Assembly: GCF_023078375.1 (NCBI RefSeq)
Contig: NZ_CP095554.1
Span: 3,402,501-3,466,500, forward strand
Length of the DNA: 64,000 nucleotides
DNA from: Roseomonas gilardii subsp. gilardii
Lineage (GTDB): Bacteria; Pseudomonadota; Alphaproteobacteria; Acetobacterales; Acetobacteraceae
Direction: 5' to 3'
Program-made: the position numbers and the translations under genes
Shown: piece by piece, positions 17,347-64,000 of the stretch
Layout of the letters: each line of letters begins with the position of its first letter
How positions within the stretch are numbered: position 1 is the stretch's first letter
The notes under the pieces: model-generated
What the model saw: only the letters and a program-made list of their open reading frames with translations
The model's database searches: none
Told to the model about the DNA's origin: nothing

Positions 17347-18477
17347 TCAGCGTCCGGCCTTGAAGCGGGTCCAGAGCCGGGCGCGGGCGCGCTCGGCAGC
17401 GGGGGGCGGGGCGGTGACGGTGAAGGTGCGGGCGATCATCTCCGGCGTCGGGATGACGTTCGGATCGTTTAGCACCGCCTGGCTGAGATGGGCGCGCGAG
17501 GCAGGCACGGCATTGGGATAGCGCACCTGGTTGGTGACGCCGGCGATCACCTCGGGCCGCAGCAGGAAGTCGATGAAGCGCTGCGCATCCTCCGGATGCG
17601 GTGCATCGGCGGGAATGGCCAGCATGTCGAACCAGAGCTGCGCGCCCTGCTTCGGCTGCACATAGGCCAGCCCGTCGGCACGGCCGCCGGCCTCGGCCCG
17701 GACGCGGGCCTGGATGACGTCGCCGGAATAGCCGAAGACGGCGCAGTACTCGCCATTCGCCAAAGCGTCGGCGAGGGCGCCGGAGGAGATGATGGCGCGC
17801 ACATGCGGGCGGATGGCCAGCAGCGCCTTCTCCGCCGCCGCGAGATCCTCGGCCGCACCGGAATTCGGATCCTTCCCGAGCCAGTGCAGCACGGAGGGGA
17901 TGACGTCGATGCCACTGTCCATGAAGGCGATGCCGCAGCCGGCGATGCGCTTCGCGTTCTCCGGCTTCAGCAGCAGGTCGAGGCTGTCGAGCGGCGCGTC
18001 GGGCGCCAGGGCGCGGATCCTGTCCGGCCGCAGGCCCATGCCGATCGTGCCCCAGAGATAGATGGCGCCATGGGCGTTGCCGGGATCGCTGCTGGCGACG
18101 CGCTGGAGCAATGCCGGGTCCTGGTTGGCGAAGTTCGGGATCTGCGCGCGGTCGAGCCTGCGCAGCGCCCCGGCGCGCACGAGGCGGGCGAAGGTGGGTT
18201 CCGAGGTCGGGACCACCACGTCATAGCCGGATCGGCCGGCGGAGAGCTTGGCCTCCAGCGTTTCCAGGCTGTCGAAGACATCGTAGCGGACGGTGATGCC
18301 GGTCTCCGCCTGGAAGCGCCCGATGGCCTTGGGATCGATATAGTCGGTCCAGTTGTAGACATTGATCACGCGTTCCTGCGCCCATGCCGCCGTGAAAGGG
18401 GCCGCCGCGGGAAGGGCCAGCATGGCCAGCAGGGGCAGGAACAGGCCGAGGCGGCGTCGGCGCACAGGCAGGCGCAT
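17347..18477 (-). CDS. Spermidine/putrescine-type ABC transporter substrate-binding protein, PotF-like
   Basis: Periplasmic polyamine-binding protein of 376 aa. The Arg-rich start, hydrophobic core and AWA at 31-33 form a signal peptide with cleavage before QERV. VYNWTDYIDP at 40-49 is the PotD/PotF mature start. ATG 18477 is chosen since it begins exactly at the signal peptide; the frame opens further upstream without sense. First gene of the operon, divergent from the phage tail cassette, so its promoter must lie in 18478-18729. Together with the decarboxylase near 1.8 kb it points to polyamine turnover. Confidence 0.94.
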   Translation of the reverse strand: MRLPVRRRRLGLFLPLLAMLALPAAAPFTAAWAQERVINVYNWTDYIDPKAIGRFQAETGITVRYDVFDSLETLEAKLSAGRSGYDVVVPTSEPTFARLVRAGALRRLDRAQIPNFANQDPALLQRVASSDPGNAHGAIYLWGTIGMGLRPDRIRALAPDAPLDSLDLLLKPENAKRIAGCGIAFMDSGIDVIPSVLHWLGKDPNSGAAEDLAAAEKALLAIRPHVRAIISSGALADALANGEYCAVFGYSGDVIQARVRAEAGGRADGLAYVQPKQGAQLWFDMLAIPADAPHPEDAQRFIDFLLRPEVIAGVTNQVRYPNAVPASRAHLSQAVLNDPNVIPTPEMIARTFTVTAPPPAAERARARLWTRFKAGR

Positions 18478-18565
18478 CAGGCGGAAGGCTCCGTGGTCTG
18501 GGGATGCGGAGGCGAGCCTAGAACAGCGCCGGGCCGGGCGGAACTGCGCGGATCGTAGGAATAAA

Positions 18566-18597
18566 TTCGTTGACATAGGAACGAAGTTCTTCTAGGG
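18566..18597 (+). promoter_or_regulatory. Possible promoter and operator ahead of the tail cassette
   Basis: GTTGAC at 18569-18574 and CTAGGG at 18592-18597, 17 nt apart, resemble the alphaproteobacterial pattern CTTGAC/CTATAT, with a poor -10. A TTCGTT-N8-AACGAA dyad (18566-18585) covers the -35, and GAAC-GAA-GTTC (18579-18589) overlaps it. The site could serve the tail genes or regulate the divergent potF-like gene. Confidence 0.35.
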
Positions 18598-18729
18598 AGG
18601 AGCGGCCAACGGGCGAGCCATGTCCGCCCGGTCCCCCCACCCGCCGCCGCCTTTCCCCGCCATCCGGAGCGCAGCCCGCGCCCCGGATGGCGGCGCGTGG
18701 CCGCGCGGCTTCTCGCCCAGGGAGCGCCG

Positions 18730-19035
18730 ATGTCCTTCGATGCCAGCTCGCTCACCGCACTGGTCAGTGCGGGTTCCTTCTCGATCTGGGACTACCGCAC
18801 CGGCGACAGCCGGGCCGCCGTGCTGGCGGGCGGCTATTTCGCGGCCGCCGCGGACCGGCTGCTGCCGGGGCATGTGGTGATCCTGCATTCGGCGGACGGG
18901 ATGTCCTTCCTGCCGATGCGCGACGGGGGAGCCGTGGGCAACGGGCTGGTGCTGGATTCGGTTTCCGCGCCGCTGCGGCTGAGCCGCACGGCGGCCGGCC
19001 GCTTCGGCCTGTCGGTCACCGCCCGCCTGTCCTGA
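18730..19035 (+). CDS. Small phage-type structural protein, paralogue of the next gene
   Basis: 101-aa protein of unknown function. It aligns end to end with the first 100 residues of the next protein at about half identity: shared blocks are SSL, YRT-D-R, GYFAAA, ADG-S-LP, AVG-GLVLD, APL-LS and RFGL-VTA. No signal peptide or membrane segment. It is the first gene of the phage tail-spike cassette, so it may be a spike-associated or capping protein. The ATG at 18730 is preceded by GGGAG. Function is not known and is not inferred beyond context. Confidence 0.7.
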   Translation: MSFDASSLTALVSAGSFSIWDYRTGDSRAAVLAGGYFAAAADRLLPGHVVILHSADGMSFLPMRDGGAVGNGLVLDSVSAPLRLSRTAAGRFGLSVTARLS

Positions 19036-19175
19036 CCCGTCCCGCCTGACCCCCGGCGGGCCGGGTCCTTCACGCCTTCCCGGGCCTTTCCCTGGGCCTC
19101 CGGCAGGCCCGCCCCGTCCCGGACGGGCACGGGGCCGTGCCGTGGCACGCCCGCCCCGCCGCAAGAGGAGATCGC

Positions 19176-19823
19176 ATGGCCTTCGCCAGTTCCAGCCTGC
19201 TCACGCTCGCCAGCACGGGCAGCATGACGCTCTGGTACTACAGGACCGCCGACACGCGGAACATGGTGCTGTCCGCCGGCTATTTCGCCGCGGCCAGCGC
19301 GCTGCGGAGCGGCGACGTGATCCTGCTCCAGGGCGCCGACGGGCTTTCGCTGCTGCCGGTCCGGAGCGGCAACGCGGTGGGCGCCGGGCTGGTGCTGGAT
19401 ACGGGCATCGCGCCGCTGGCCCTGTCGCTGGCGGCGTCGATGCGCTTCGGCCTCGGCGTCACGGCGGCCCCCGTGCTGCGCGCGATCCGGATCGACGGCC
19501 TCGCCTCGCTCATCCCCTGGGGCCCGGCGATGAGCCTGGGCGCGAGCGTGGAGGGGCCGGTCGCCGGCCTGGTCTTCCGGGTGGTCGATGCCGGCGGCGG
19601 CACGGTCTCCGGCCCCGTCAGGGTGGCGGTGAATGCCGGCCGGGCGGTGGCGAGCCTGGACAGTCCGCCGATCGGCACGGGCTACCGCCTCCGCGCCGAG
19701 GATGCGGCGGATGCCGCGCTGTTCCTGCTGTCCCCGGCCTTTTCCGTGAGCCTGGGCCCCGGCCTACTCGCCGAGGCCGGCGGCACGCTCCTGACCGAAA
19801 GCGGCACCCGCCTGCTGCTCTGA
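19176..19823 (+). CDS. Phage-type structural protein with duplicated N-terminal domain
   Basis: 215-aa protein. Residues 1-100 are a paralogue of the preceding 101-aa protein; the second half (about 100-215) is a beta-rich domain beginning LRAIRIDGLASLIPWGPAM with Gly/Ala/Val repeats. The ATG at 19176 has AAGAGGAG at ideal distance. Codon use and GC match the neighbours. The gene sits directly before the tail spike, so a role in fibre or spike assembly is plausible but unproven. Confidence 0.72.
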   Translation: MAFASSSLLTLASTGSMTLWYYRTADTRNMVLSAGYFAAASALRSGDVILLQGADGLSLLPVRSGNAVGAGLVLDTGIAPLALSLAASMRFGLGVTAAPVLRAIRIDGLASLIPWGPAMSLGASVEGPVAGLVFRVVDAGGGTVSGPVRVAVNAGRAVASLDSPPIGTGYRLRAEDAADAALFLLSPAFSVSLGPGLLAEAGGTLLTESGTRLLL

Positions 19824-19870
19824 CCCCCGCCCCTCCCCGCGACATCCCCTCCCCCCGCACAGGAGCCCCC

Positions 19871-22330
19871 ATGCCCGACGCGAAGATCAGCCAGCTCCCC
19901 GCCGCCACCCTCTTCTCCGACAGCGACTTCAGCCCGGTGGTCCAGGGCGCGACGCCGGAAACGCGGCGTGCCACGGTGGCGCAGTGGCGCAGCGCCATGC
20001 AGGCGGACCGGCCGCTGCATGTCCGCGACTACGGCGCCAAGGGCGATGGCGCGACCGACGATGCCGCCGCGATCCAGGCGGCGATCGATGCCGCCGCCGC
20101 CCAGGGCGGAGGCACGGTGCTGCTGGGGCCCCGGCGCTATCTCCTCGCGGGCGCCGGGCTGGACATCAAGCCGAACGTGGTGCTCTCGGGGGCGCTCTCC
20201 ACGGGCGCGCAGCGCGCGGCGGGCGATTATGGCAGCGTCCCCTACGCCTTCCTGCTCGATCCTGCGCAGACCATCCGGCTGCGCCGCAATGCCGGGCTGA
20301 AGGGCGTGGCGATCCTGCGCACCGGCCTCGCCGCGCCGGCCGACATGCGCGCCGGCATCAACCTCGTGGCGGGCTTCGCCGGCACCGCGGTCACGGTCGG
20401 CGACGGCACGAACGGCAACGGTTCCGACGTGCGCCTGTCCAACCTGCTGATCCTGGGCTTCGACCTCGCCGTGCTCAGCGACTACAACGCGCGGCTTCGG
20501 ATCGACGATATCGCGGGCGACAACCGCAACGGGCTGCGGCTGCGGCACTCCTACGACATCACCCGCGTGCACAACGTGCATTTCTGGCCCTTCCTCACGG
20601 GCAATATCGACGGCGTGGCACTGAACAGCCGCGATGTGTCGGCCATCGCCAACAACGGCTCGGGCACGATCCGCGTCTCCACCGGCACGGCGCACGGGCT
20701 GGCGACGGGCGATGTGGTGAACCTGACCGGATGCCTGGGCCTGGCCGCGGCGAACGGACGATTCACGGTGACGGTCGCCTCGGCCACCAGCTTCGACCTC
20801 AACGGCTCGGCCTATGCCGGGGGCTATACCGGCGGCGGCAAGGTCTGGATCTGGAACAACCGGCGCACGGGCACGGCCTTCCATCTCGAATATGCCGATG
20901 TGGCGGAGTTCACCAACTGCTTCGCCTATGGCTACGACACGGGTTTCAACCTGGGCCACAACGTGCAGGCGACGCAGTGCATCGACTGCTCGGTGGACAA
21001 CCACCTGGACGTGGCTGATCCGCTGACCGTGGGGTTGCGCATCACGGGCGGCGGCGTCACCGCCTCCGATGGCAGCAGCACGATCGGCGCCTTCCGCACC
21101 AAGTGGATCGGCGGCTTCCTGTCCTCCCAGGGGCGGACGGTGCTGCTGGACCCGGTCTCCTCCACCGAGCAGCACCACATCGTCGGCACGGTGGTGAATG
21201 GCGGCACGCTGCGCACCATCGACCTGCAGCGCGGCGCGCTGACGCTGGAGGCCTGCGACCTCACCACCGGCGGCAACCTGTACGGCACGGGCAACCCGAA
21301 CGTCGTGTATCTCGGCAGCGAGGCGCAGAACCTGACTCTGCTGGGCTGCGACCTGCGGAGCGCGACCTTCCAGGCCGCCAGCGACGCGGCCATGCAGCGC
21401 CTGAGCATGAGCGGCAACCGCGACTCCTCCGGCGTGGCGAAGCTCGCGGGCGGCAGCCTGGAGCTGCACACCGTGCCGAGCGCGAGCGCGGGGCCGACCC
21501 GGCGGCTGGACATCGCGGCCGATGGCACGATGACGGTGCGGCGCCGCTCCAGCAGCCTTGGGGCGCGCATCAACCTCGCCAACCCCTCGGACCAGGCGGC
21601 CTATTTCATCTCCGCCGGGCAGGCGGGCGGCAATCTCGGCCTGGGCGGCGATCCGGGCGTGAACCCGAATGGCGGGATCGACCTGGGCACCACCGGCAAC
21701 GCCACCGCGCCGATGGTGGTGCAGATCCGGCGGATCTCCGCCAGCCCGGCGGCCAGCGACCGCCTGGGCTATCTCCACTTCAACGGCATGAACAGCGGCG
21801 CGGTGGAGACCACCTATGCCCGGCTGACCGGCATCTCCGACAGCATCGCCGCCGGCGCGGAATCCGGCACGCTGGTGCTGGAGTTGCGCCAGGGCACGTC
21901 CATGGTCGAGCGGCTGCGCCTCTCGGCCGATGGCACGCTGCTGCTGACCGCGGCGCCGACCGCGGCGATGCACGCGGCCACCAAGAGCTATGTGGACGGG
22001 CAGTTCACCGAAAGGCGGCTGCCGCAGGTGGTGCTTTCCGCCGCCACGGCGCTGGGCTTCGCCGCGCACAACAACCGGCTGCTGCTGGCCAATGCGGGGG
22101 CCAGCCTGAGCATCGACTACAACGCGGTCGGGCTCGGCTTCTCCTGCATGGTGGTCAATCGCAGCGGTGCCGACCTGGCGCTGGCGCTGGCCAACTTCAC
22201 CGGCACCGCGCCGGTCAGCGCGGAGGGCTACACGAAGATCAAGGCGAATGGGGTGGCGAGCCTGCTGACCTACTCGCCCGATGGCGGCGCCACGCGGTAC
22301 TGCCATCTCAGCGGGGCGGGCGCGACCTGA
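19871..22330 (+). CDS. Phage tail spike/fibre protein with pectate-lyase-like beta-helix
   Basis: 819-aa protein. The N-terminus KISQLPAATLFSDSDFSPVV with RATVAQ is the virion-anchoring segment seen in many tail fibres. VRDYGAKGDGATDDAAAIQ at about 53-71 begins a right-handed beta-helix of the pectate lyase superfamily, as in receptor-degrading tailspikes. Near the C-terminus AATKSYVDG is the fibre repeat that precedes a trimerisation/tip domain. ATG 19871 with AGGAG upstream is the start, although the frame is open from 19142. It would bind or depolymerise a cell-surface glycan; the target is unknown. Confidence 0.88.
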   Translation: MPDAKISQLPAATLFSDSDFSPVVQGATPETRRATVAQWRSAMQADRPLHVRDYGAKGDGATDDAAAIQAAIDAAAAQGGGTVLLGPRRYLLAGAGLDIKPNVVLSGALSTGAQRAAGDYGSVPYAFLLDPAQTIRLRRNAGLKGVAILRTGLAAPADMRAGINLVAGFAGTAVTVGDGTNGNGSDVRLSNLLILGFDLAVLSDYNARLRIDDIAGDNRNGLRLRHSYDITRVHNVHFWPFLTGNIDGVALNSRDVSAIANNGSGTIRVSTGTAHGLATGDVVNLTGCLGLAAANGRFTVTVASATSFDLNGSAYAGGYTGGGKVWIWNNRRTGTAFHLEYADVAEFTNCFAYGYDTGFNLGHNVQATQCIDCSVDNHLDVADPLTVGLRITGGGVTASDGSSTIGAFRTKWIGGFLSSQGRTVLLDPVSSTEQHHIVGTVVNGGTLRTIDLQRGALTLEACDLTTGGNLYGTGNPNVVYLGSEAQNLTLLGCDLRSATFQAASDAAMQRLSMSGNRDSSGVAKLAGGSLELHTVPSASAGPTRRLDIAADGTMTVRRRSSSLGARINLANPSDQAAYFISAGQAGGNLGLGGDPGVNPNGGIDLGTTGNATAPMVVQIRRISASPAASDRLGYLHFNGMNSGAVETTYARLTGISDSIAAGAESGTLVLELRQGTSMVERLRLSADGTLLLTAAPTAAMHAATKSYVDGQFTERRLPQVVLSAATALGFAAHNNRLLLANAGASLSIDYNAVGLGFSCMVVNRSGADLALALANFTGTAPVSAEGYTKIKANGVASLLTYSPDGGATRYCHLSGAGAT

Positions 22331-23574
22331 TGCTGGGAATCGTCGCCGCCGCGCTGGGGGTGGAGGCGGGAGCCGGTGCCTCCTGGCTCACCCTGATCGG
22401 ACCGCGCGGCCTGCACGGCTCCCTTGCCGTCACGCGCAATTCCACCGCCGGCGGCTACGATGCCGCCGGCAACTACCTGGAACTGGCCGCCAACCAGCCG
22501 CGCTTCGACACGGCGGGCGGGCTGATCGTGGAGGAGGCGCGGAGCAACGCGATCCGCAACCCGCGGATCGAGGGCGCCGTGGCGGGTTCGCCCGGGACGG
22601 TGCCGGCCTACTGGACCGTCACCGCCATCGCGGGCCTGACCCGGACCCTGTCCGTGGGGACGGAGGCCGGGGCGCCCTATCTGGACTGCAACTTCTCCGG
22701 CACCAGCACGGCGGCGGGCTATTGCGTCATCATGCCGGAACAGGTGGGCGCCGTCGCCGCGGCCGCCGGCCAGAACTGGACCTGCGCGGTGAACGTCGCC
22801 CTGGTGGCGGGGAGCATCCCGGGCGGCGGCAATCTCCGCCTGAGGGTGCAGGAGCGCGGCGACAGCACCTCGCCCGCCACGGATGTCAGCATCGCCGCGA
22901 CGGCAGGCACGCAGCGTGTCGCCTGCACGCGGCTCCTCACGGCCGGCGGCACGACCAGCATCGTCCCTTCGGTGCTGGCTTATGTGCCGAGCGGCGTCGG
23001 CATGGACTTCACCCTGCGGGTATCCCTGCCGCAGATGGAGCAGGCCGGCTTCGCCACCACGCCGGTCCTGCCGCCCGCGGGCAGCCGGGCGGCGCAGGCC
23101 CGTGCGGCGGACCAGGTGCTGCGGCAGCCGGCGGGGGGCTATGGCAGCGCCGGCACCGTGCTGGTCGCCGCCAGCATTCCGCAGGCCTCGCCCGCGGGCG
23201 TGCCCCAGGGCCTGTGGCAGATCGATGACGGCACGGACGCGAACCGGCTGATCCTGCGCAACACCGGCACGGCGCTGACCGCCGAGATCGAGCGCGGCGG
23301 CGCCAGCGGCGCGGTGATGACGCTGGGCGGCATCGCGCCGGGCACCGCCTTCCGGGCGGGTTTCGCCTGGGCACCCGGAAGCCAGTCGGCCTGCATGGCC
23401 GGCGGCTCCGTCCAGACGGCGGCGGCCACCTTGCCCGCCGGGCTGGCGCGGCTGCTGCCCGGGCATGGATCGGGGAGCTGGAACCGGGCGCTGAACGGCT
23501 CGGTCCGGCTGCTGCAGTACCTCCCCGCGCGGCTGCCGGACACGCAGTTGCAGGGCCTCGTCAACCAGAGCTGA
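22330..23574 (+). CDS. Phage spike/fibre-like protein with carbohydrate-binding-type beta domains
   Basis: 414-aa protein whose ATG overlaps the tailspike stop (ATGA). GGLIVEEARSNAIRNPRIEG followed by PAYW is the start motif of the jelly-roll domain in phage head-spike fibre proteins; a second beta domain (about 265-414) begins GYGSAGTVLVAAS and resembles a concanavalin-like fold. No signal peptide. Translational coupling suggests near-equal amounts with the tailspike, perhaps as a second adhesin or adaptor. Assignment is from motif recall, not a search. Confidence 0.75.
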   Translation: MLGIVAAALGVEAGAGASWLTLIGPRGLHGSLAVTRNSTAGGYDAAGNYLELAANQPRFDTAGGLIVEEARSNAIRNPRIEGAVAGSPGTVPAYWTVTAIAGLTRTLSVGTEAGAPYLDCNFSGTSTAAGYCVIMPEQVGAVAAAAGQNWTCAVNVALVAGSIPGGGNLRLRVQERGDSTSPATDVSIAATAGTQRVACTRLLTAGGTTSIVPSVLAYVPSGVGMDFTLRVSLPQMEQAGFATTPVLPPAGSRAAQARAADQVLRQPAGGYGSAGTVLVAASIPQASPAGVPQGLWQIDDGTDANRLILRNTGTALTAEIERGGASGAVMTLGGIAPGTAFRAGFAWAPGSQSACMAGGSVQTAAATLPAGLARLLPGHGSGSWNRALNGSVRLLQYLPARLPDTQLQGLVNQS

Positions 23575-23588
23575 GAAAGGGCTTCTCC

Positions 23589-23963
23589 ATGAGCGACCTG
23601 ACGAACTATGCCCGCGACATGCTGGCCCGCACCCTGTGCGGCCGGGCGCCGACCCCGCCGGGCGCGGTCTATGCCGCGCTGGGCAGCGGCGGCAGCGCCA
23701 CGGGCGGCGTGACAGGGGAGCCTGCGGGCACCGGCTATGCCCGCCAGCGCGTCACCTTCAACGGCACGGGCAGCCAGGCCAATGCGGAGGCGCTGCGCTT
23801 CACCTTCACCGCCGCCGCCGGCACGCTGAGCCATCTCGGCCTGTTCGATGCTGCCTCGGGGGGCAATCCCCTCACCTTCATGGCGCTGTCGCAGCCGGTG
23901 GTGATGTCGGGGCCCGGCACGGTCACCATCGCCGCGAGCGGGCTGGTGGTGGCGCCGGACTGA
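23589..23963 (+). CDS. Small phage tail fibre-type protein
   Basis: 124-aa protein (MSDLTNYARDMLARTLCGRA start) resembling small phage structural proteins that follow fibre genes: an N-terminal helix, then a Gly/Thr/Ala-rich beta domain with FNGTGSQANAEALRFTFTAA and LSHLGLFDAASGGNPLTF. A ribosome site lies 14 nt after the previous stop. It is the last gene of the cassette; convergent chromosomal genes follow. Confidence 0.7.
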   Translation: MSDLTNYARDMLARTLCGRAPTPPGAVYAALGSGGSATGGVTGEPAGTGYARQRVTFNGTGSQANAEALRFTFTAAAGTLSHLGLFDAASGGNPLTFMALSQPVVMSGPGTVTIAASGLVVAPD

Positions 23964-23974
23964 CCATTCCCGAA

Positions 23975-24003
23975 CTGCCGTGGGGGCCTCGCCCCTACGG
24001 CAG
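23975..24003. terminator. Convergent terminator hairpin
   Basis: CTGCCGTGGGGG, 5-nt loop, CCCCTACGGCAG: a 12-bp stem with one G-U pair, between the convergent tail cassette and MAPEG gene. It overlaps the MAPEG stop codon and probably serves both directions, though T-tracts are lacking. Confidence 0.55.
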
Positions 24004-57725: not shown

Positions 57726-58373
57726 CTACTGGCTGGCCCAGACGATGCGGTGCATCCAGGTGATCTCGGCCAGGTCGAAGCTGTAGTTGGGATGCGCCGG
57801 GTTCAGGCTGGCCAGTTCGACCTTCCGGGCGGATTGTCGCAGCAGTTCCTTGGCCATGACCTCCCCTCCCCGGGTGCGGACCACCACGCGGTCGCCCCGC
57901 CGGATCGGAGCGGCGGGCGAGACGATGATGGTGTCGCCGTCGCGGAACACCGGCTCCATGGAATCGCCCGAGATCTCCAGCGCATAGGCGTTAGGGTCGG
58001 GGATTTCCGGCACGCTGATCTCGTCCCATCCAGCGCCGGAGGGGAAGCCGCCATCGTCGAAGTAGCCGGCGCTGCCGGCCTGGGCGAGGCCGATCAGCGG
58101 GATGCGCCGCACCGGCCGCACGGCGGCGGCGCGGAAGTTCATCGGCGTGCCGGTCACCAGGCTGGCGAAGGCATCCAGGCTGGTGCCGGTGGCGTCCAGC
58201 ACCTTGGCGACGCTTTCCGTCGATGGCCATCGTGCGCGGCCATCCGGCCCGGTGCGTTTGGAGGGGTTGAAGGCGGTGGGGTCGAGCCCCGCCTTGCGCG
58301 CCAGACCCGAGGCCGACAGGCCGTTCTCGGCTGCCAGCGCATCGATGGCGCGCCAGATGTCGTAGTGCTGCAT
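57726..58373 (-). CDS. Phage-type repressor, S24 peptidase family
   Basis: 215 aa. Residues 1-70 form a helix-turn-helix (GLSASGLARKAGLDPTAFNPSK). The C-terminal LexA-like domain has the scissile Ala-Gly at 99-100 (LAQAG), the catalytic Ser138 in GDSMEPVF and Lys175 in VMAKELL, so RecA-assisted self-cleavage is expected. It faces the divergent phage gene across a 125-nt promoter region, the classic cI-like layout. Some such proteins in alphaproteobacteria are chromosomal regulators, which cannot be excluded. Confidence 0.9.
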   Translation of the reverse strand: MQHYDIWRAIDALAAENGLSASGLARKAGLDPTAFNPSKRTGPDGRARWPSTESVAKVLDATGTSLDAFASLVTGTPMNFRAAAVRPVRRIPLIGLAQAGSAGYFDDGGFPSGAGWDEISVPEIPDPNAYALEISGDSMEPVFRDGDTIIVSPAAPIRRGDRVVVRTRGGEVMAKELLRQSARKVELASLNPAHPNYSFDLAEITWMHRIVWASQ

Positions 58374-58379
58374 GAGGCA

Positions 58380-58408
58380 ATTATCCTAGGCAGAGATTCT
58401 GCTGGCAA
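58380..58408 (-). promoter_or_regulatory. Repressor promoter predicting a leaderless transcript
   Basis: On the minus strand TTGCCA (58408-58403), 17-nt spacer, GATAAT (58385-58380). Transcription would start about 7 nt further on, at the A of the repressor ATG (58373). Confidence 0.55.
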
Positions 58409-58431
58409 TAGGAAATATCTCTTAACTGAAC

Positions 58432-58460
58432 GTTGACGCTTCCCGTTTGGAGGGTAATAT
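58432..58460 (+). promoter_or_regulatory. Promoter of the first rightward phage gene
   Basis: GTTGAC (58432-58437), 17-nt spacer, TAATAT (58455-58460), with the start codon at 58499. It lies in an AT-rich stretch back to back with the repressor promoter, so the repressor probably binds between them. Confidence 0.6.
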
Positions 58461-58498
58461 TCACATTTAGTTCAACCATAAGGCGAGGACAGCCCCCG

Positions 58499-58939
58499 AT
58501 GACCAACGCCGCTTCCGACAACCGCTTCCCGCCCAGGCGCCTGTCGCTTCCGAAGACAGAGCCCTTCCGCCATGCCGAGGAGGCGTGGTTCTGGACCATG
58601 TCGGCCCTGATCGCCCGCCGCGACGGCGCGCGCATCGTGGCCGGGCGCGGCCTGGTGCAGCGCCCCTGCGAGCCGGACGATGTGGTGAAGTGCCTGGACA
58701 GGCTCTATCGCCAGCGCCGGATCGACCTGACGCATGCGCGGATCCTCCGGATCTGGGGGGAGCGGGGACAGGCGCCGGACCCACGCTCCGCCCGCGAGAA
58801 GCACGATCATCGCCTGTGGCGCGAAGCACTGGAGCGGCTGGAATGGCCGCTGCGGATCAAGGGCATCGTAGCCGGCGAGGCCGGGGCCCTGGGGAGTGGT
58901 GCGGAGGTGGTGCACCTGGACGGGCTTTCCCGGCCCTGA
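58499..58939 (+). CDS. Hypothetical phage-associated protein
   Basis: 146 aa, basic, probably DNA-associated. RIDLTHARILRIWGERGQAPDPRS and WREALERLEWPLRIKGIV are recognisable as a small protein repeatedly seen next to T7-like head genes in Acetobacteraceae, but it has no assigned function. ATG 58499 with AAGGCGAGG upstream. First gene transcribed away from the repressor. Confidence 0.75.
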   Translation: MTNAASDNRFPPRRLSLPKTEPFRHAEEAWFWTMSALIARRDGARIVAGRGLVQRPCEPDDVVKCLDRLYRQRRIDLTHARILRIWGERGQAPDPRSAREKHDHRLWREALERLEWPLRIKGIVAGEAGALGSGAEVVHLDGLSRP

Positions 58940-59426
58940 CCCGCATGCGGACCGGAACCGCCTGCACCACCTTACGGCAACCCCCGGGAGAGGTCCCGGG
59001 GCTGCGCCACGGCGGCTCTCGCATCGGCGCGCTGGCGGGGAACAGGAGCTCTGGCTGGGCTTCGGTGGCCGTGCGGACCAAGCCTGGCTTCGTCTGCTGC
59101 GGCCGGGCTTCCGGCACTGCTTCGCGGCGTTGCGCGATGGTGGCGGGTGGACGGTGATCGATCCCTTGTCGGGCCGGCTGCTGGTGACGAGGCTGGAGGT
59201 AGGCACGGATTTCGACCTGCCGGGTTTCTGGCGGCGCGCTGGCTGCCGTGTCCTGGGTCCCTTCGCCCCCTCCGATCCGGCTCCCGGCCTGCCATGGCTT
59301 TCGCCTCTCTCCTGCGTCTCGTTGTGCCGGGCCCTGTTGGGGCCACACGCGCCATTCGCGCTGACCCCTTATAAACTCTACCTAAGATTGCAGAAAAATT
59401 TTCTTGTTATGGGAAAATATTCTTGA
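58896..59426 (+). CDS. Hypothetical phage-associated protein with AT-rich 3' end
   Basis: Up to 176 aa from GTG 58896, overlapping the previous gene by 44 nt. Only the part from about residue 48 (GGEQELWLGFGGRADQAWLR, then LLRPGFRHCFAALRDGGGW) looks conserved; it resembles small proteins next to phage connector genes. No ATG, GTG or TTG lies closer to that point, so the start is uncertain. The last 20 codons (TPYKLYLRLQKNFLVMGKYS) are strikingly AT-rich and unlike the rest. Confidence 0.65.
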   Translation: MVRRWCTWTGFPGPDPHADRNRLHHLTATPGRGPGAAPRRLSHRRAGGEQELWLGFGGRADQAWLRLLRPGFRHCFAALRDGGGWTVIDPLSGRLLVTRLEVGTDFDLPGFWRRAGCRVLGPFAPSDPAPGLPWLSPLSCVSLCRALLGPHAPFALTPYKLYLRLQKNFLVMGKYS

Positions 59427-59450
59427 CTTCTAAGGCTAAGTGCATGTAAA
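59422..59450 (+). promoter_or_regulatory. Candidate promoter of the phage head operon
   Basis: CTTGAC (59422-59427), 17-nt spacer, TGTAAA (59445-59450). It overlaps the stop of the preceding gene and lies about 60 nt upstream of a strong terminator. Confidence 0.5.
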
Positions 59451-59507
59451 CATCGCGTCATCAACGGGCGATTTGCGTCCGAAGGAATTTCTTCCCTAGC
59501 CTGGTTT

Positions 59508-59577: not shown

Positions 59578-59808
59578 ATGGGTGGCCTCTTCAGCGTGCC
59601 GAAGCCGGTGGTCGTCACCACCCCCGCCCTCCCCCAGCAGGCCATGGCCGATTCCTCGGCAGCGGTCGCCGGTGCCAGCGCCGTCCAGGCGCGGCAGGAC
59701 GATGCCGAACGGCACCGGCGCGGGCTGGCGGGCACTATCGCCACCTCGGAGCGGGGCGTCCTGTCGCCCCTGCCGGTGGCGGCGCGCAAGACGCTGCTGG
59801 GGGAGTGA
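59578..59808 (+). CDS. Small phage protein upstream of the connector
   Basis: 76 aa: a Pro/Val-rich start (GGLFSVPKPVVVTTPALPQQ), an Ala/Gln-rich helix, and TIATSERGVLSPLP. Podophages often encode such a small virion or scaffold-associated protein just before the connector; T7 gp7.3 is a positional analogue only. ATG 59578; ends 4 nt before the next ATG. Confidence 0.7.
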   Translation: MGGLFSVPKPVVVTTPALPQQAMADSSAAVAGASAVQARQDDAERHRRGLAGTIATSERGVLSPLPVAARKTLLGE

Positions 59809-59812
59809 AGGG

Positions 59813-61309
59813 ATGAAGCCCGAGGATATCCTCCAGCGCCATGCCCGTGCCCTGGAGGCCCGGCGCCCCTGGGAAGGGGTCTGGCGCGAATGCTACGAGC
59901 ATGTTCTGGCGACGGTGCCGGGCACGGGCGGCCCCACCCTGTTCGACGGCACCGCGGCGGATGCGGCGGAGCAGTTGGCGGCCTCCCTCCTGGCCGAGCT
60001 GACGCCACCCTGGTCGCGCTGGTTCGGCCTGACGCCGGGCCGGGCGCTGGCCGGGCAGGATGGCCCCGCGGCCGAGGCCCAGGCCGCCACGGAGGCGCTG
60101 GAACAGGCCGCCGACACGCTGCAGGGGCATCTGGACCGCTCCTCCTTCGCGCTGGAGATGCACCAGGCCTTCCTTGACCTGGTGGTGGCGGGGACGGGCG
60201 TGCTGCTGGTGGAGGAGGCCGCGCCCGGCGAGGCCTCGGCGCTGCGCTTCCAGGCGGTGCCGCTGCGCGAATGCGTGCTGGAGGAAGGCCCTTCCGGCCG
60301 GCTGGAGACGGTCTATCGCGCCGCGCGGCTGGACCGGACCGCGATCGCCGCGCGCTGGCCGGGCGCGGGCCTGCCACCCGCCGATGCCGCGGAAACGGAT
60401 GGCAGGCTGCTGGTGGTCGAGGCGGTCTGGCCGGACGGGCCGGGCCATGCCTATGCCGCGGTGCTGGACGGCGTGGACGGGCAGGCGCGGATGCTGGCGA
60501 GCGGCCGTTTCGCCCGCAGCCCCTTCATCGCCTTCCGCTGGATGAAGGCGCCGGGCGAGAGCTATGGCCGTGGGCCGGTGATGCGGGCGCTGCCGGATAT
60601 CCGCACCGCCAACAAGGTGGTGGAACTGGTGCTGAAGAACGCCTCCATCGCCGCCACCGGCATCTGGCAGGCGGATGATGACGGGGTGCTGAACCCGGCG
60701 ACGGTGCGCCTCGTGCCGGGGGCGATCATCCCCAAGGCGCCCGGCTCCTCCGGTCTGACGCCGCTGGCGGCGCCGGGAAATTTCGACGTGTCGCAGCTCG
60801 TGCTCTCGGACATGCGGGGGCGCATCCGCTCGGCCCTGCTCGCGGACCGGCTGGGGCCGCCGCAGGAGGCGCGGATGACGGCCACGGAGGTGCTGGAACG
60901 CTCGGCTCAGGCGGCGCGGCTGCTGGGTGCCACCTATGGGCGCCTGCAGGCGGAACTGCTGACGCCGCTGATCGCCCGCTGCCTGTCCATCCTGCGGCGG
61001 CGTGGCGAGGTGCCGCCGATCCTGCTGGACGGGCATGAGGCGAGCCTGAGCTACCAGTCCCCGCTGGCACGGCTGCAGGGCCGTTCGGATGCGGCGAACA
61101 TGCTGCTCTTCCTGCAGGCCGTCGCGGCGCTGGGGCCGGAGGCAACGGCCCAGGTGGACCGTGCCGCCGCCACCCGGCACCTGGCGAAGATCCTCGCCGC
61201 GCCGGCCGGGATCCTGAACGCCGTGCCCGCCACGCCGCAACCGTCATCGCAGCCGGGTTCCAGCCCGGCTGCCGTCCTCGGCCCCGTCAGGGCCGCCATC
61301 GAGGAGTGA
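59813..61309 (+). CDS. T7-like head-to-tail connector (portal) protein
   Basis: 498-aa portal of the podovirus head-tail connector family. ARALEARRPWEGVWRECYEHVL matches the N-terminal helix pattern; LFDGTAADAAEQLAASLLAELTPP, WMKAPGESYGRGPVMRALPDI and ATEVLERSAQAARLLGATYGRL are further blocks. It forms the ring through which DNA passes and the scaffold assembles. ATG 59813 with AAGGG upstream. The next gene overlaps by 4 nt. Confidence 0.88.
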   Translation: MKPEDILQRHARALEARRPWEGVWRECYEHVLATVPGTGGPTLFDGTAADAAEQLAASLLAELTPPWSRWFGLTPGRALAGQDGPAAEAQAATEALEQAADTLQGHLDRSSFALEMHQAFLDLVVAGTGVLLVEEAAPGEASALRFQAVPLRECVLEEGPSGRLETVYRAARLDRTAIAARWPGAGLPPADAAETDGRLLVVEAVWPDGPGHAYAAVLDGVDGQARMLASGRFARSPFIAFRWMKAPGESYGRGPVMRALPDIRTANKVVELVLKNASIAATGIWQADDDGVLNPATVRLVPGAIIPKAPGSSGLTPLAAPGNFDVSQLVLSDMRGRIRSALLADRLGPPQEARMTATEVLERSAQAARLLGATYGRLQAELLTPLIARCLSILRRRGEVPPILLDGHEASLSYQSPLARLQGRSDAANMLLFLQAVAALGPEATAQVDRAAATRHLAKILAAPAGILNAVPATPQPSSQPGSSPAAVLGPVRAAIEE

Positions 61310-62082
61310 TCACACGCATGTCCGAGAGCCTGTTGGATGCGGCCCTGGCACCGGCCGGGAAGGCCGACACACCGGATGCGGCCACGGTTCCCGAAAGTGC
61401 CACGCGGCCGCCCGAGGTGCCCGAGAAGTTCTGGGATGCGGAGGCCGGCCGGGTCCGGCTGGACAGCCTGCTGAAATCCTATCGCGAGCTGGAGCGGAAG
61501 CTGTCGCAGCGCCTGGCGCGCCCGGGGGCCGAGGCGCCGGAGGACGAGCACCGGCGCTTCGCCCGGCTGCTGGGCGCACCGGAGGAGCCGGATGGCTACC
61601 GGATCGCCGAGCGGCACGCGCTGTGCTGCTCCGATCCGGAGGTGAACACGCGGCTGCACGCGGCGGGCTTCACGCAGGATCAGGCGCAGCTCGTCTATGA
61701 CCTGGCGGCGGAGAAGCTGCTGCCGGTGATCGCGGAGGCCGCGGCGCAATACGAGGCGCAGCGCCAGCTCGACCGGCTGCGCGAGGAGTTCGGCGGCGAG
61801 GAGCGTTTCGCGCAACTGTCGCGCCAGATCTCCGCCTGGGGCCGCGCGAACCTGCCACCCGAGGTCTTCGCCGCCCTGTCCACCACCGCCGAGGGGGTGA
61901 AGGCGCTGCACGCCATGATGCGGAAGGGAGAGCCGGCCATGGCGCGTTCCGCCGAGGAGCCGTCGGGCATGGACGAGGCGGGGCTGCGCCGGATGATGCG
62001 CGATCCACGCTACTGGCGCTCCCGCGAGCCGGAGTTCGTGCGCCGCGTCACCGAGGGTTTCCGCCGCCTCACGGGCGGTTGA
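61306..62082 (+). CDS. Capsid assembly scaffolding protein
   Basis: 258 aa from GTG 61306 (overlapping the connector stop) or ATG 61318. An acidic, Ala/Pro/Glu-rich N-terminal half with PEVPEKFWDAEAGRVRLDSLL, the start motif seen in T7-like scaffolds, then a helical, charged C-terminal half ending in basic residues that would bind the coat protein. It guides procapsid assembly and is released before DNA packing. Confidence 0.82.
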   Translation: MITRMSESLLDAALAPAGKADTPDAATVPESATRPPEVPEKFWDAEAGRVRLDSLLKSYRELERKLSQRLARPGAEAPEDEHRRFARLLGAPEEPDGYRIAERHALCCSDPEVNTRLHAAGFTQDQAQLVYDLAAEKLLPVIAEAAAQYEAQRQLDRLREEFGGEERFAQLSRQISAWGRANLPPEVFAALSTTAEGVKALHAMMRKGEPAMARSAEEPSGMDEAGLRRMMRDPRYWRSREPEFVRRVTEGFRRLTGG

Positions 62083-62488: not shown

Positions 62489-63319
62489 GTGGGTCAGATC
62501 GACGCCGCTTTCGTGAAGCAGTTCGAGGCCGAGGTGCACGAGGCCTACCAGCGCCAGGGCAGCAAGCTGCGCCCGACCGTGCGCTCCAAGACAGGGGTGC
62601 GCGGCGCCTCCACGGTCTTCCCACGGGTCGGCAAGGGCACGGCCGCGGCCAAATCCCGTGCTGGTCAGGTGCCGCTGATGAACCTCGACCACGCCACGGT
62701 CGAATGCTTCCTGCAGGACTACTATGCCGGCGAGTGGATCGACCGGCTGGACGAGGTCAAGCTCTCCTTTGACGAGCAGACGGTGGTGGCGCATGCCGGC
62801 GCCTATGCGCTCGGCCGCAAGACCGACGAGCTGATCATCGCCGCCCTGGACACCGCGACGCAGACCGCCTCCGGCACCGGGACGGGCCTGACCGATGCGG
62901 ATGGGCTGACCCGCGCCAAGGTGCTGCGGGCCTTCGAGATGCTGGGCGCGGCGGATGTCCCCGATGACGGCCAGCGCTATGCCGTGGTCGGCTGGAAGCA
63001 GTGGTCGCAACTGCTGCAGATCGAGGAGTTCGCCAACTCCAACTACATCGGCGATGCCGATCTGCCCTGGAAGGGGACCCAGGCGAAGAAGTGGCTGGGC
63101 GCGACCTGGCTGCCGCATTCCGGGCTGACGCTGGATGGGGCGGTGCGCAACTGCTTCTTCTATCACCGCACCTCGGTCGGCCATGCGGTGGCGCAGGAGG
63201 TCACCACCGACATCACCTGGCACGGCGACCGCGCGGCGCATTTCGTCAACAACATGATGAGCCAGGGCGCCGTGCTGATCGACCCGACCGGCGTGGTGCG
63301 GATGCGCGCGGCGGAGTGA
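62489..63319 (+). CDS. Major capsid protein
   Basis: 276 aa from GTG 62489 (AATGGAGAAG upstream). VGQIDAAFVKQFEAEVHEAYQRQG is the N-arm; TVVAHAGAYALGRKTDELIIAALD, the E-loop and spine region, and VVGWKQWSQLLQIEEFANSNYIGDADLPW are typical of capsid proteins in T7-like prophages. An HK97-type fold is expected. The frame runs upstream to 62261, but that stretch is Pro/Arg shadow sequence. Position after connector and scaffold supports the call. Confidence 0.88.
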   Translation: MGQIDAAFVKQFEAEVHEAYQRQGSKLRPTVRSKTGVRGASTVFPRVGKGTAAAKSRAGQVPLMNLDHATVECFLQDYYAGEWIDRLDEVKLSFDEQTVVAHAGAYALGRKTDELIIAALDTATQTASGTGTGLTDADGLTRAKVLRAFEMLGAADVPDDGQRYAVVGWKQWSQLLQIEEFANSNYIGDADLPWKGTQAKKWLGATWLPHSGLTLDGAVRNCFFYHRTSVGHAVAQEVTTDITWHGDRAAHFVNNMMSQGAVLIDPTGVVRMRAAE

Positions 63320-63701: not shown

Positions 63702-64000
63702 ATGGCGCTTTCCGCCCTCGTTCTCTGCTCGCGCGCCCTGCTCCGCATCGGAGCGCAGCCGATCGCCTCTTTCGAGGAAGGGACGGCCGAAGCGGAAGTC
63801 GCCGCCAGCCTCTATCCGGCGGCGCGCGACGCGCTGCTCGCGGCCCATCCCTGGTCCTTCGCCACCGGGCAGATGGTGCTGCCCCGGTTGCTGGACGTGC
63901 CGGTCGCGGACATGGCGTATGCCTTCCAACTGCCTCCGCGCTGCCTGCGCGTGCTCTCCGCCGGCAGCGGCCGGCGCGGGCGCGGGCTGGAATACCGGCT
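63702..64000 (+). CDS. Tail tubular protein A-like (gp11), 5' part
   Basis: First 99 codons visible. VLCSRALLRIGAQPIASFEEGTAEAEVAASLYPAARDALLAAHPWSFA is the conserved start of T7 gp11-type head-tail adaptors (many acquire the pattern Y-x-x-x-R-D-x-x-L-x-x-x-P-W). Start ATG 63702. The gene and presumably gp12, internal virion and terminase genes continue beyond the window. Confidence 0.82.
   Translation, partial: MALSALVLCSRALLRIGAQPIASFEEGTAEAEVAASLYPAARDALLAAHPWSFATGQMVLPRLLDVPVADMAYAFQLPPRCLRVLSAGSGRRGRGLEYR

Follow-up and report, generated by a model that had tools for sequence, protein, structure and literature searches.

A tail-fibre cassette beside potD and a podovirus-type head-tail cluster in Roseomonas gilardii: probably two loci of one vertically inherited element resembling a gene transfer agent

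Tail-spike genes surrounded by housekeeping DNA raise the question of which particle, if any, their products serve. In the 64,000-nt stretch of Roseomonas gilardii DNA analysed here (the window), five co-oriented, intact ORFs, all with a positive coding score, lie between potD of a polyamine transporter operon and a MAPEG gene (both on the – strand), as a first-pass annotation of the sequence had correctly described:

18730..19035, + strand: P1 (101 aa), small virion-protein domain, phrog_18004
19176..19823, + strand: P2 (215 aa), P1 paralogue with a C-terminal extension
19871..22330, + strand: P3 (819 aa), beta-helix tailspike
22330..23574, + strand: P4 (414 aa), fibre-type tail protein
23589..23963, + strand: P5 (124 aa), Gp80 / podophage fibre I family

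P1 and P2 are paralogues, as had been proposed, and share 56% identity over their common part; the predicted model of P2 has a mean pLDDT of 76.8 and a pTM of 0.48. The N-terminus of P3 is of the pectate-lyase/tailspike type (PF12708 and phrog tail-spike families), its first 250 residues being conserved and the remainder differing from genus to genus, and P4, which matches phrog_5939 (tail protein), is found in only a subset of relatives. P5 is a member of the Gp80 family (PF23140, podophage GP4 fibre I; E 1.8e-19, 70.7 bits, Pfam curated cut-off 27) but does not significantly match the solved GP4-like chain in sequence (E 0.89). The P3/P4 junction, earlier read as an ATGA coupling, is in fact TGATG, with stop and start overlapping by one base, and is kept in two other genomes (G102 and G159). 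The dN/dS relative to two congeners is below 1 for all five genes, at 0.10–0.24 for P1, P3 and P5 and 0.35–0.59 for P4 and P2, the fast-evolving genes of the cassette.

The cassette had been regarded as an orphan with no tail, packaging or lysis gene near. This view is contradicted by a podovirus-type head-tail cluster that begins at 57.7 kb in the same window and runs past the window end to about 72.3 kb, its portal gene (59.8 kb) lying ~36 kb downstream of the cassette. The cluster encodes a LexA-like repressor, small proteins, portal, scaffold, capsid, tail tubes, a spike, terminase and a cell-wall hydrolase:

57726..58373, – strand: S24rep (215 aa), HTH and S24 peptidase, LexA/cI-like regulator
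58374..58498, no strand assigned: promoter region between the divergent S24rep and g58.5, containing TAGGAW boxes (motif present in 17 of the 18 genomes inspected)
58499..58939, + strand: g58.5 (146 aa), strongly conserved, no family assigned, candidate regulator
59049..59426, + strand: g59.2, a small and conserved gene (called at 59154-59426, the open frame reaching further upstream)
59578..59808, + strand: g59.6 (76 aa), phrog_831
59813..61309, + strand: portal / head-tail connector, PF12236, E 1.8e-120
61318..62082, + strand: scaffold, PF05396, T7 capsid assembly
62489..63319, + strand: major capsid protein, PF19821, E 3.6e-84
63702..64000, + strand: tail tube A, phrog_394 (the gene ends at 64271, past the window)
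past the window end, to 72327 for the hydrolase: genes for tube B, an internal virion protein, a second spike, a small protein (phrog_31793) and the large terminase subunit, then two small genes without a name and the cell-wall hydrolase PF07486, followed by DUF952

No integrase or replication family occurs among the called genes of the cluster that have a family match; four small genes match no family, so that an unrecognised mobility gene is possible. S24rep has the residues typical of self-cleaving repressors (Ala-Gly, Ser and Lys) and matches the LexA and cI models weakly, under the curated cut-off, and g58.5 gave no convincing match. A gene transfer agent (GTA) is considered below. A tailocin, one of the particles considered earlier, does not fit a partner cluster with portal, capsid, scaffold and terminase, and its contractile form is rejected for this genome, in which the tail sheath PF04984 has 0 matches (control: detected in 3 of 14). 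An element of the RcGTA type is also rejected, as PF04860, which we take to be the RcGTA-type portal family, has 0 matches in this genome, and the same model detects Caulobacter.

The two loci carry a common promoter and 5' leader:

18555..18598, + strand: cassette promoter, with box GTAGGAA (18555-18561), –35 TTGACA (18570-18575) and –10-like TAGGGA (18593-18598, the –10 read by eye)
18603..18626, + strand: cassette leader box / hairpin CGGCCAACGGGCGAGCCATGTCCG, score 17/22, single-strand fold –12.3 kcal/mol
59409..59451, + strand: cluster promoter, with box ATGGGAA (59409-59415, differing from the pattern at one position), –35 TTGACT (59423-59428) and –10-like GTAAAC
59458..59481, + strand: cluster leader box / hairpin TCATCAACGGGCGATTTGCGTCCG, score 22/22

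In relatives, the same promoter layout is present 5' of the first cassette gene. With search patterns partly derived from the genomes then searched, box plus –35 gave 27 matches genome-wide (13 at cassettes, 8 ahead of the portal gene and 6 at other sites), and the leader pattern 28 in 24 genomes (19 at clusters, 7 at cassettes, 2 elsewhere) against 1 for its reversed control; for the box alone, the reversed-pattern control yields 20 matches. The leader lies above the shuffled maximum at 73 of 80 named loci and scores at least 17 at 21 of 23 cassettes, versus 5 of 460 shuffles. A third locus was sought via the leader, and both stray matches (G011:C2 and G102:C1) fall in or beside ordinary genes. 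The promoter box and leader hairpin are common to cassette and cluster and nearly confined to them.

Both loci are kept in place and inherited together. The order from portal to terminase is identical in 19 of 20 relatives fetched from 48 portal-positive genomes, the remaining one ending at a contig edge, and in each of another 20 fetched genomes the cassette adjoins potD. Among 20 loci fetched for P4, the cassette adjoins potD in 8; ten have the P1/P2-P3-P5 set and ten are without P1, P2 or P5. Many P4 matches are not the cassette. In 200 genomes the portal occurs in 45, the P3 spike in 43 and both in 37 (Fisher p 3e-26), and by genus both occur in 18, of 23 and 19 respectively, among 102, shared ancestry being ignored in both counts. 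Distances of cluster, cassette and pot operon correlate in 17 genomes (r 0.82, 0.79 and 0.66; 0 of 2000 permutations each), and nearly all genes have a dS of 0.11–0.43 and a dN/dS of 0.02–0.34, with flanking genes alike: both loci diverge at the pace of host genes. On order, potD site, selection and tree congruence these are vertically inherited, chromosomal, phage-derived structural genes, which is one of the marks of a GTA. The earlier proposal of a host-kept recognition module for a distant GTA-type particle is supported by the potD site across many genera, the flank-like evolution, and the promoter and leader held in common with the head-tail cluster.

In some genomes one of the two loci is missing or broken. 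The cassette occurs without detected portal or capsid in G124 (100% complete), G106, G115 and G087, and the portal without detected P5 in G038, G045, G097, G154 and G197; only a weak P5 is seen in the portal-bearing G050 and G176. In G072, stops fall within the portal pieces and the capsid, and Azospirillum TSH64, a Magnetospirillum MAG and the locus L238 have the 5' part of the cluster only, followed by host genes. Such broken copies, the patchy distribution, the genomes in which one locus has gone and the phage-type gene content are what an old defective prophage could leave, the cassette being another remnant of that phage and both simply persisting. We consider this unlikely in view of the intact order in the fetched genomes, the purifying selection resembling that of host genes, the congruent trees, and a promoter and leader common to the loci and kept across many genera.

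The retention of the cassette in the four genomes without detected portal or capsid, together with the pectate-lyase-like start of P3, could alternatively mean that it serves the cell alone, as a secreted or surface complex binding or degrading glycans, its link to the cluster being historical; for these few genomes, the free secreted adhesin considered earlier may hold. As a general reading this is improbable given the common promoter and leader, the podophage fibre family to which P5 belongs (its gene here lying apart from the head-tail genes) and the position of the P1/P2 domain elsewhere. Of 385 genomes, 45, belonging to 28 families, have a portal match with an E-value no higher than 1e-160. 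All 20 distant homologous clusters have g59.2, 19 have S24rep, 19 the scaffold, 16 the capsid and 15 g58.5; in 13 of these 20, in the MAG L237 and in phage Hodr, the P1/P2 domain is encoded directly after the capsid gene. The remaining 100 scanned loci do not have it there, and it was not found in the scanned Acetobacteraceae clusters. At a score of at least 17 the leader is present in 0 of the 20 distant clusters, and it would therefore be a feature of the Acetobacteraceae.

Among viruses, the nearest full-length phage is Pelagibacter phage EXVC031P Hodr (OQ414635), a free 34-kb genome with 33% (portal) and 43% (capsid) identity; no replication genes were seen in the present element, which sits in the chromosome. 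The whole cassette was found in no phage: P2 gave no match, P3 two weak and partial ones, P4 only Azospirillum phage Cd (32%), and P5 12 records, each at most 39%. A plasmid origin of P3 was rejected, with no match. Two IMG/VR contigs (L033 and L034) carry P3-P4-P5, one of them also P2, with a lysozyme-like gene next and no portal match within the stretches examined. An active temperate podovirus or satellite, moving among Acetobacteraceae and integrating at preferred sites, is very improbable: lytic podoviruses do have homologous structural genes and many copies are entered as viral contigs in IMG/VR, but the best 80 such contigs are 3.5–16.2 kb long (none above 20 kb), the called genes gave no match to an integrase or replication family, the nearest annotated phage is as distant as Hodr, and the trees are congruent.

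The two loci therefore probably form a single, vertically inherited podovirus-type element resembling a GTA, with the cassette as its fibre or host-recognition locus, the head, short-tail, packaging and lysis genes in the second locus, and a host-kept regulator over both. S24rep, LexA-like and probably self-cleaving, would control both loci, perhaps together with g58.5, via the common promoter box and leader hairpin, so that upon its release the transcripts of cassette and cluster would be made together. Heads would then assemble on portal and scaffold and be filled with DNA by the terminase; we infer that P1/P2, P3, P4 and P5 decorate this particle, and the cell would lyse at the end. GTA (viriform) particles mostly package random host DNA, which is then transferred, and the DNA packaged here, and its transfer, may be of this kind. 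Judged from its genes, the element would most likely work as a GTA, since no replication or integration gene is seen and it is inherited with the chromosome.

With RcGTA and CcGTA it shares a chromosomal head-tail cluster of ~14–15 kb, vertical descent and accessory loci elsewhere, and differs from them in its PF12236 portal, PF19821 capsid and T7-type terminase. As with S24rep here, a LexA-like regulator with HTH and S24 domains, RogA (213 aa), is described in Caulobacter; in that description RogA is without the catalytic residues, which S24rep retains (PMC9632790). FpGTA of Faecalibacterium, likened here by its published description, is also podovirus-like and in two loci, the second with fibre, receptor-binding and lysis genes (PMC12946183), but its host is a Firmicute, whereas the present portal is spread throughout the Alphaproteobacteria. 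BaGTA of Bartonella, as outlined in PMC3610622 and PMC9662315, is likewise a conserved phage-derived cluster with host-like Ka/Ks, some of its particles being reported as short-tailed or tailless; it is set apart by published gene sizes and order, with a 1863-nt portal adjoining the terminase, against a 1497-nt portal and a terminase at the far end here.

More tentatively, the distribution of these genes suggests that the element may represent a separate, ancient podovirus-type GTA lineage of Alphaproteobacteria that predates the split of many families, with a self-cleaving repressor and its partner gene g58.5 kept in more than two dozen families, and that in the Acetobacteraceae the fibre genes and those near the capsid gene may have moved to a second locus, under a copy of the promoter and leader. 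Particles containing host DNA have reportedly been seen in relatives such as Azospirillum lipoferum, and this lineage could be their so far unassigned source.

If the GTA reading holds, the alphaproteobacterial GTAs best known so far would gain an unrelated, short-tailed second counterpart, whose fibre genes sit apart from the main cluster and are tied to it through a copied promoter and hairpin, and a testable candidate source for the Azospirillum particles would be at hand. It would be a clean case of a domesticated virus with scattered yet co-regulated parts, as well as a warning that viral-contig catalogues enter pieces of such elements as viruses, and it would give Roseomonas and many of its relatives a DNA-based route for exchanging genes.

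The five co-oriented genes that the first-pass annotation had described as a tail-spike cassette, between a polyamine transporter operon and a MAPEG gene, were found in that arrangement:

18730-23963, between potD and MAPEG: cassette of five co-oriented genes
P1 and P2: paralogues, phrog_18004
P3: 819 aa, tailspike-type protein
P4: match to phrog_5939 tail protein
P5: Gp80, the podophage GP4 fibre I family

The junction of the two large genes, previously read as an ATGA coupling, is TGATG, a one-base P3/P4 overlap that is the same in two compared genomes (G102 and G159). The longest potD frame (17347-18576) covers the cassette promoter; since the alignment of potD relatives begins only at about residue 65, the potD start is probably Met34 or downstream, and the true intergenic region would be longer than the annotated frame implies. 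A lysozyme-like gene lies 3' of P5 in 3 of 37 loci, two viral contigs and genome G107 (L033 4171-4626; L034 5083-5502; L040), and thus a lysis gene is sometimes part of the cassette.

The claim that no tube, packaging or lysis gene is near the cassette does not hold, as a head-tail, terminase and hydrolase cluster begins in the same window. In this genome (4.62 Mb, two contigs) the phage genes at the far end of the window, called with a gene finder trained on the window, are completed by the downstream sequence to a compact podovirus-type unit, which carries a second spike of its own and has the following order:

S24rep, minus strand: LexA/cI-like regulator gene
g58.5, 58499-58939 (also loci L159-L238, L429-L448): small protein
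g59.2, then g59.6: small genes
portal, PF12236
scaffold, PF05396
capsid, PF19821
tail tube A, phrog_394, then tail tube B, phrog_376
internal virion protein, phrog_418
second spike, then small gene, phrog_31793
terminase large subunit, phrog_38
two unnamed small genes, cell-wall hydrolase PF07486, DUF952: cluster end

The closest named record of the portal is from Roseomonas mucosa ATCC BAA-692 (93%), on which basis Roseomonas is assumed as host. One inspection of the called genes of this single cluster, narrower than an integrase search, gave no match to an integrase or replication family; the PF04860 portal is absent from this genome, and the contractile sheath, already reported as missing near the cassette, was found nowhere in it. 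A tRNA-Ser(GCT), possibly an old integration site, lies about 2 kb past the cluster (L056 19323-19422, about 74.8 kb in window numbering).

Among 200 family genomes the portal is present in 48 at E 1e-10 (45 at 1e-100) and P3 in 43 at E 1e-20, with both in 37. The order from portal through scaffold, capsid, tubes, internal protein and spike to terminase is identical in 19 of 20 fetched portal loci, and the twentieth meets a contig edge after the scaffold. In all 20 further P3 loci potD, on the opposite strand, adjoins P2 and P3, and P5 is present in 19, the remaining contig ending before its position. P3 is similar over its full length only in nearer genera, and in most of the rest the match is confined to the first 250 residues, as expected for a docking N-terminal end and a changing receptor end. 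Distances over 17 genomes correlate for each pair of loci (r 0.82 for the cassette against the cluster, 0.79 for the cluster against the pot operon, 0.66 for the cassette against the pot operon), and all three values exceed those of 2000 permutations. The dN/dS values against two congeners (capsid 0.02-0.05, portal about 0.13, terminase 0.12-0.15, P3 0.15, P5 0.10-0.12) are comparable to those of flanking genes (0.07-0.27), and are higher for g59.6 (0.50), P2 (0.57-0.59) and P4 (0.35-0.43). These comparisons indicate that cassette and cluster are both old and inherited together.

The two loci also share upstream elements. Of 23 genomes, 15 have an NTAGGAW box upstream of the first cassette gene, usually 14-15 nt ahead of a TTGAC -35 element, and the box occurs in 17/18 S24rep-g58.5 intergenic regions vs 69/638 other upstream regions. 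A search for TAGGAW-N7-9-TTGAC across 14 genomes chosen for their cassette site, portal-side sites playing no part in the choice, gave 27 matches (13 cassette, 8 about 0.4 kb 5' of the portal, 6 elsewhere), against 20 for the reversed-pattern control. Downstream of both promoters is a leader, CCAACGGGCGANNTGCGYCC, able to form a six-pair hairpin. Its 28 matches in 24 genomes (control, 1) fall at 19 clusters, 7 cassettes and 2 other places; five of the cluster matches (G024, G036, G063, G121, G186) are in genomes whose clusters were not used for pattern building. The leader score exceeds the best of 80 shuffles in 73 of 80 named portal loci, and is at least 17 (of 22) at 21/23 cassettes vs 5/460 shuffles; 20 of 351 upstream regions of cassette loci reach this value, 19 being cassette starts. 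At three G-C pairs of the stem, G-U-keeping changes number 32 vs 2 A-C breaks, and the outer C-G pair is swapped to G-C in 12/78; the cassette leader of this genome retains the stem with its right arm shifted. The Ala-Gly, Ser and Lys residues of S24rep are kept in 89, 88 and 89 of 92 sequences, so that self-cleavage, and with it DNA-damage control, is possible. The box is a putative S24rep operator, and through the same box and leader one common switch would act on both loci. g58.5, without a family match, accompanies S24rep and the portal at every locus in which it was seen, with F23, W30, W32, C57 and W107 among its invariant residues (35 sequences); it is a candidate activator or antiterminator.

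The P1/P2-domain profile has two matches directly 3' of a capsid gene, one in L237, a Rhodospirillaceae MAG (E 3e-15), and one in Pelagibacter phage Hodr (E 4e-7), and finds no further copy in 101 cluster loci, a set in which 48 of 49 long named loci include capsid and tube A. Capsid and tube A also flank the domain in 13 of 20 clusters from other parts of the class. The domain being capsid-adjacent there, the cassette would supply a particle part; on the simplest reading, the gene would have moved in Acetobacteraceae to the potD locus together with the fibre genes.

Some genomes hold one locus or broken copies. Portal and capsid were not detected in G124, G106, G115 and G087, although the cassette is present (apparently intact in G124 and G106); G177 has a capsid match only (38%) and the G072 copy is broken. 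The portal occurs without P5 in G038, G045, G097, G154 and G197, and G059, though missing from the P3 matches of the 200-genome search, carries both P5 and a P3-like gene. Clusters that end after the scaffold, followed by host genes (Azospirillum TSH64, a Magnetospirillum MAG and L238; loci L234, L235 and L238), or whose capsid is about 10 kb further on (G377, L437), are read as split or decaying. Some genomes have a second, diverged portal of podovirus type (35-37% where given; G059:C259, G047:C74, G044:C45, G222:C22, G319:C18, G332:C6), probably that of a real prophage.

At E 1e-60 the portal has relatives in 66 of the 385 genomes of the class, from 42 families (45 and 28 at E 1e-160). Twenty class-wide loci hold S24rep (19), g58.5 (15), g59.2 (20), scaffold (19), capsid (16), tubes A and B (15) and terminase (13), and none has a leader score of 17 or more. 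At least 355 relatives were confirmed in a viral contig collection, the best 80 being 3.5-16.2 kb long, with 54 of at least 11 kb (median 12.7 kb). Among full-length annotated phages Hodr is the closest (portal 33%, capsid 43%); identities are higher, 50% and 55%, for an unannotated 5-kb faecal contig. In PMC3899980, Azospirillum lipoferum is cited as forming particles of about 10 kb with host DNA, an RcGTA-like region being suggested as a possible source. A podovirus-type element in Acetobacteraceae was not found in the literature searched, preprints and most subscription papers lying outside it, nor in the available parts of PMC12946183, PMC3899980, PMC9662315, PMC9632790, PMC11150451, PMC6899734, PMC3610622 and PMC10386132.

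The first-pass reading of an orphan cassette serving a distant particle is kept as to the served, GTA-type particle, as far as genes can tell, and not as to the orphan state, the cluster beginning in the same window and being co-inherited. The cassette is, on this evidence, best read as the fibre locus of a two-locus, vertically kept, podovirus-type element, known here from its genes alone, which is most likely a gene transfer agent.
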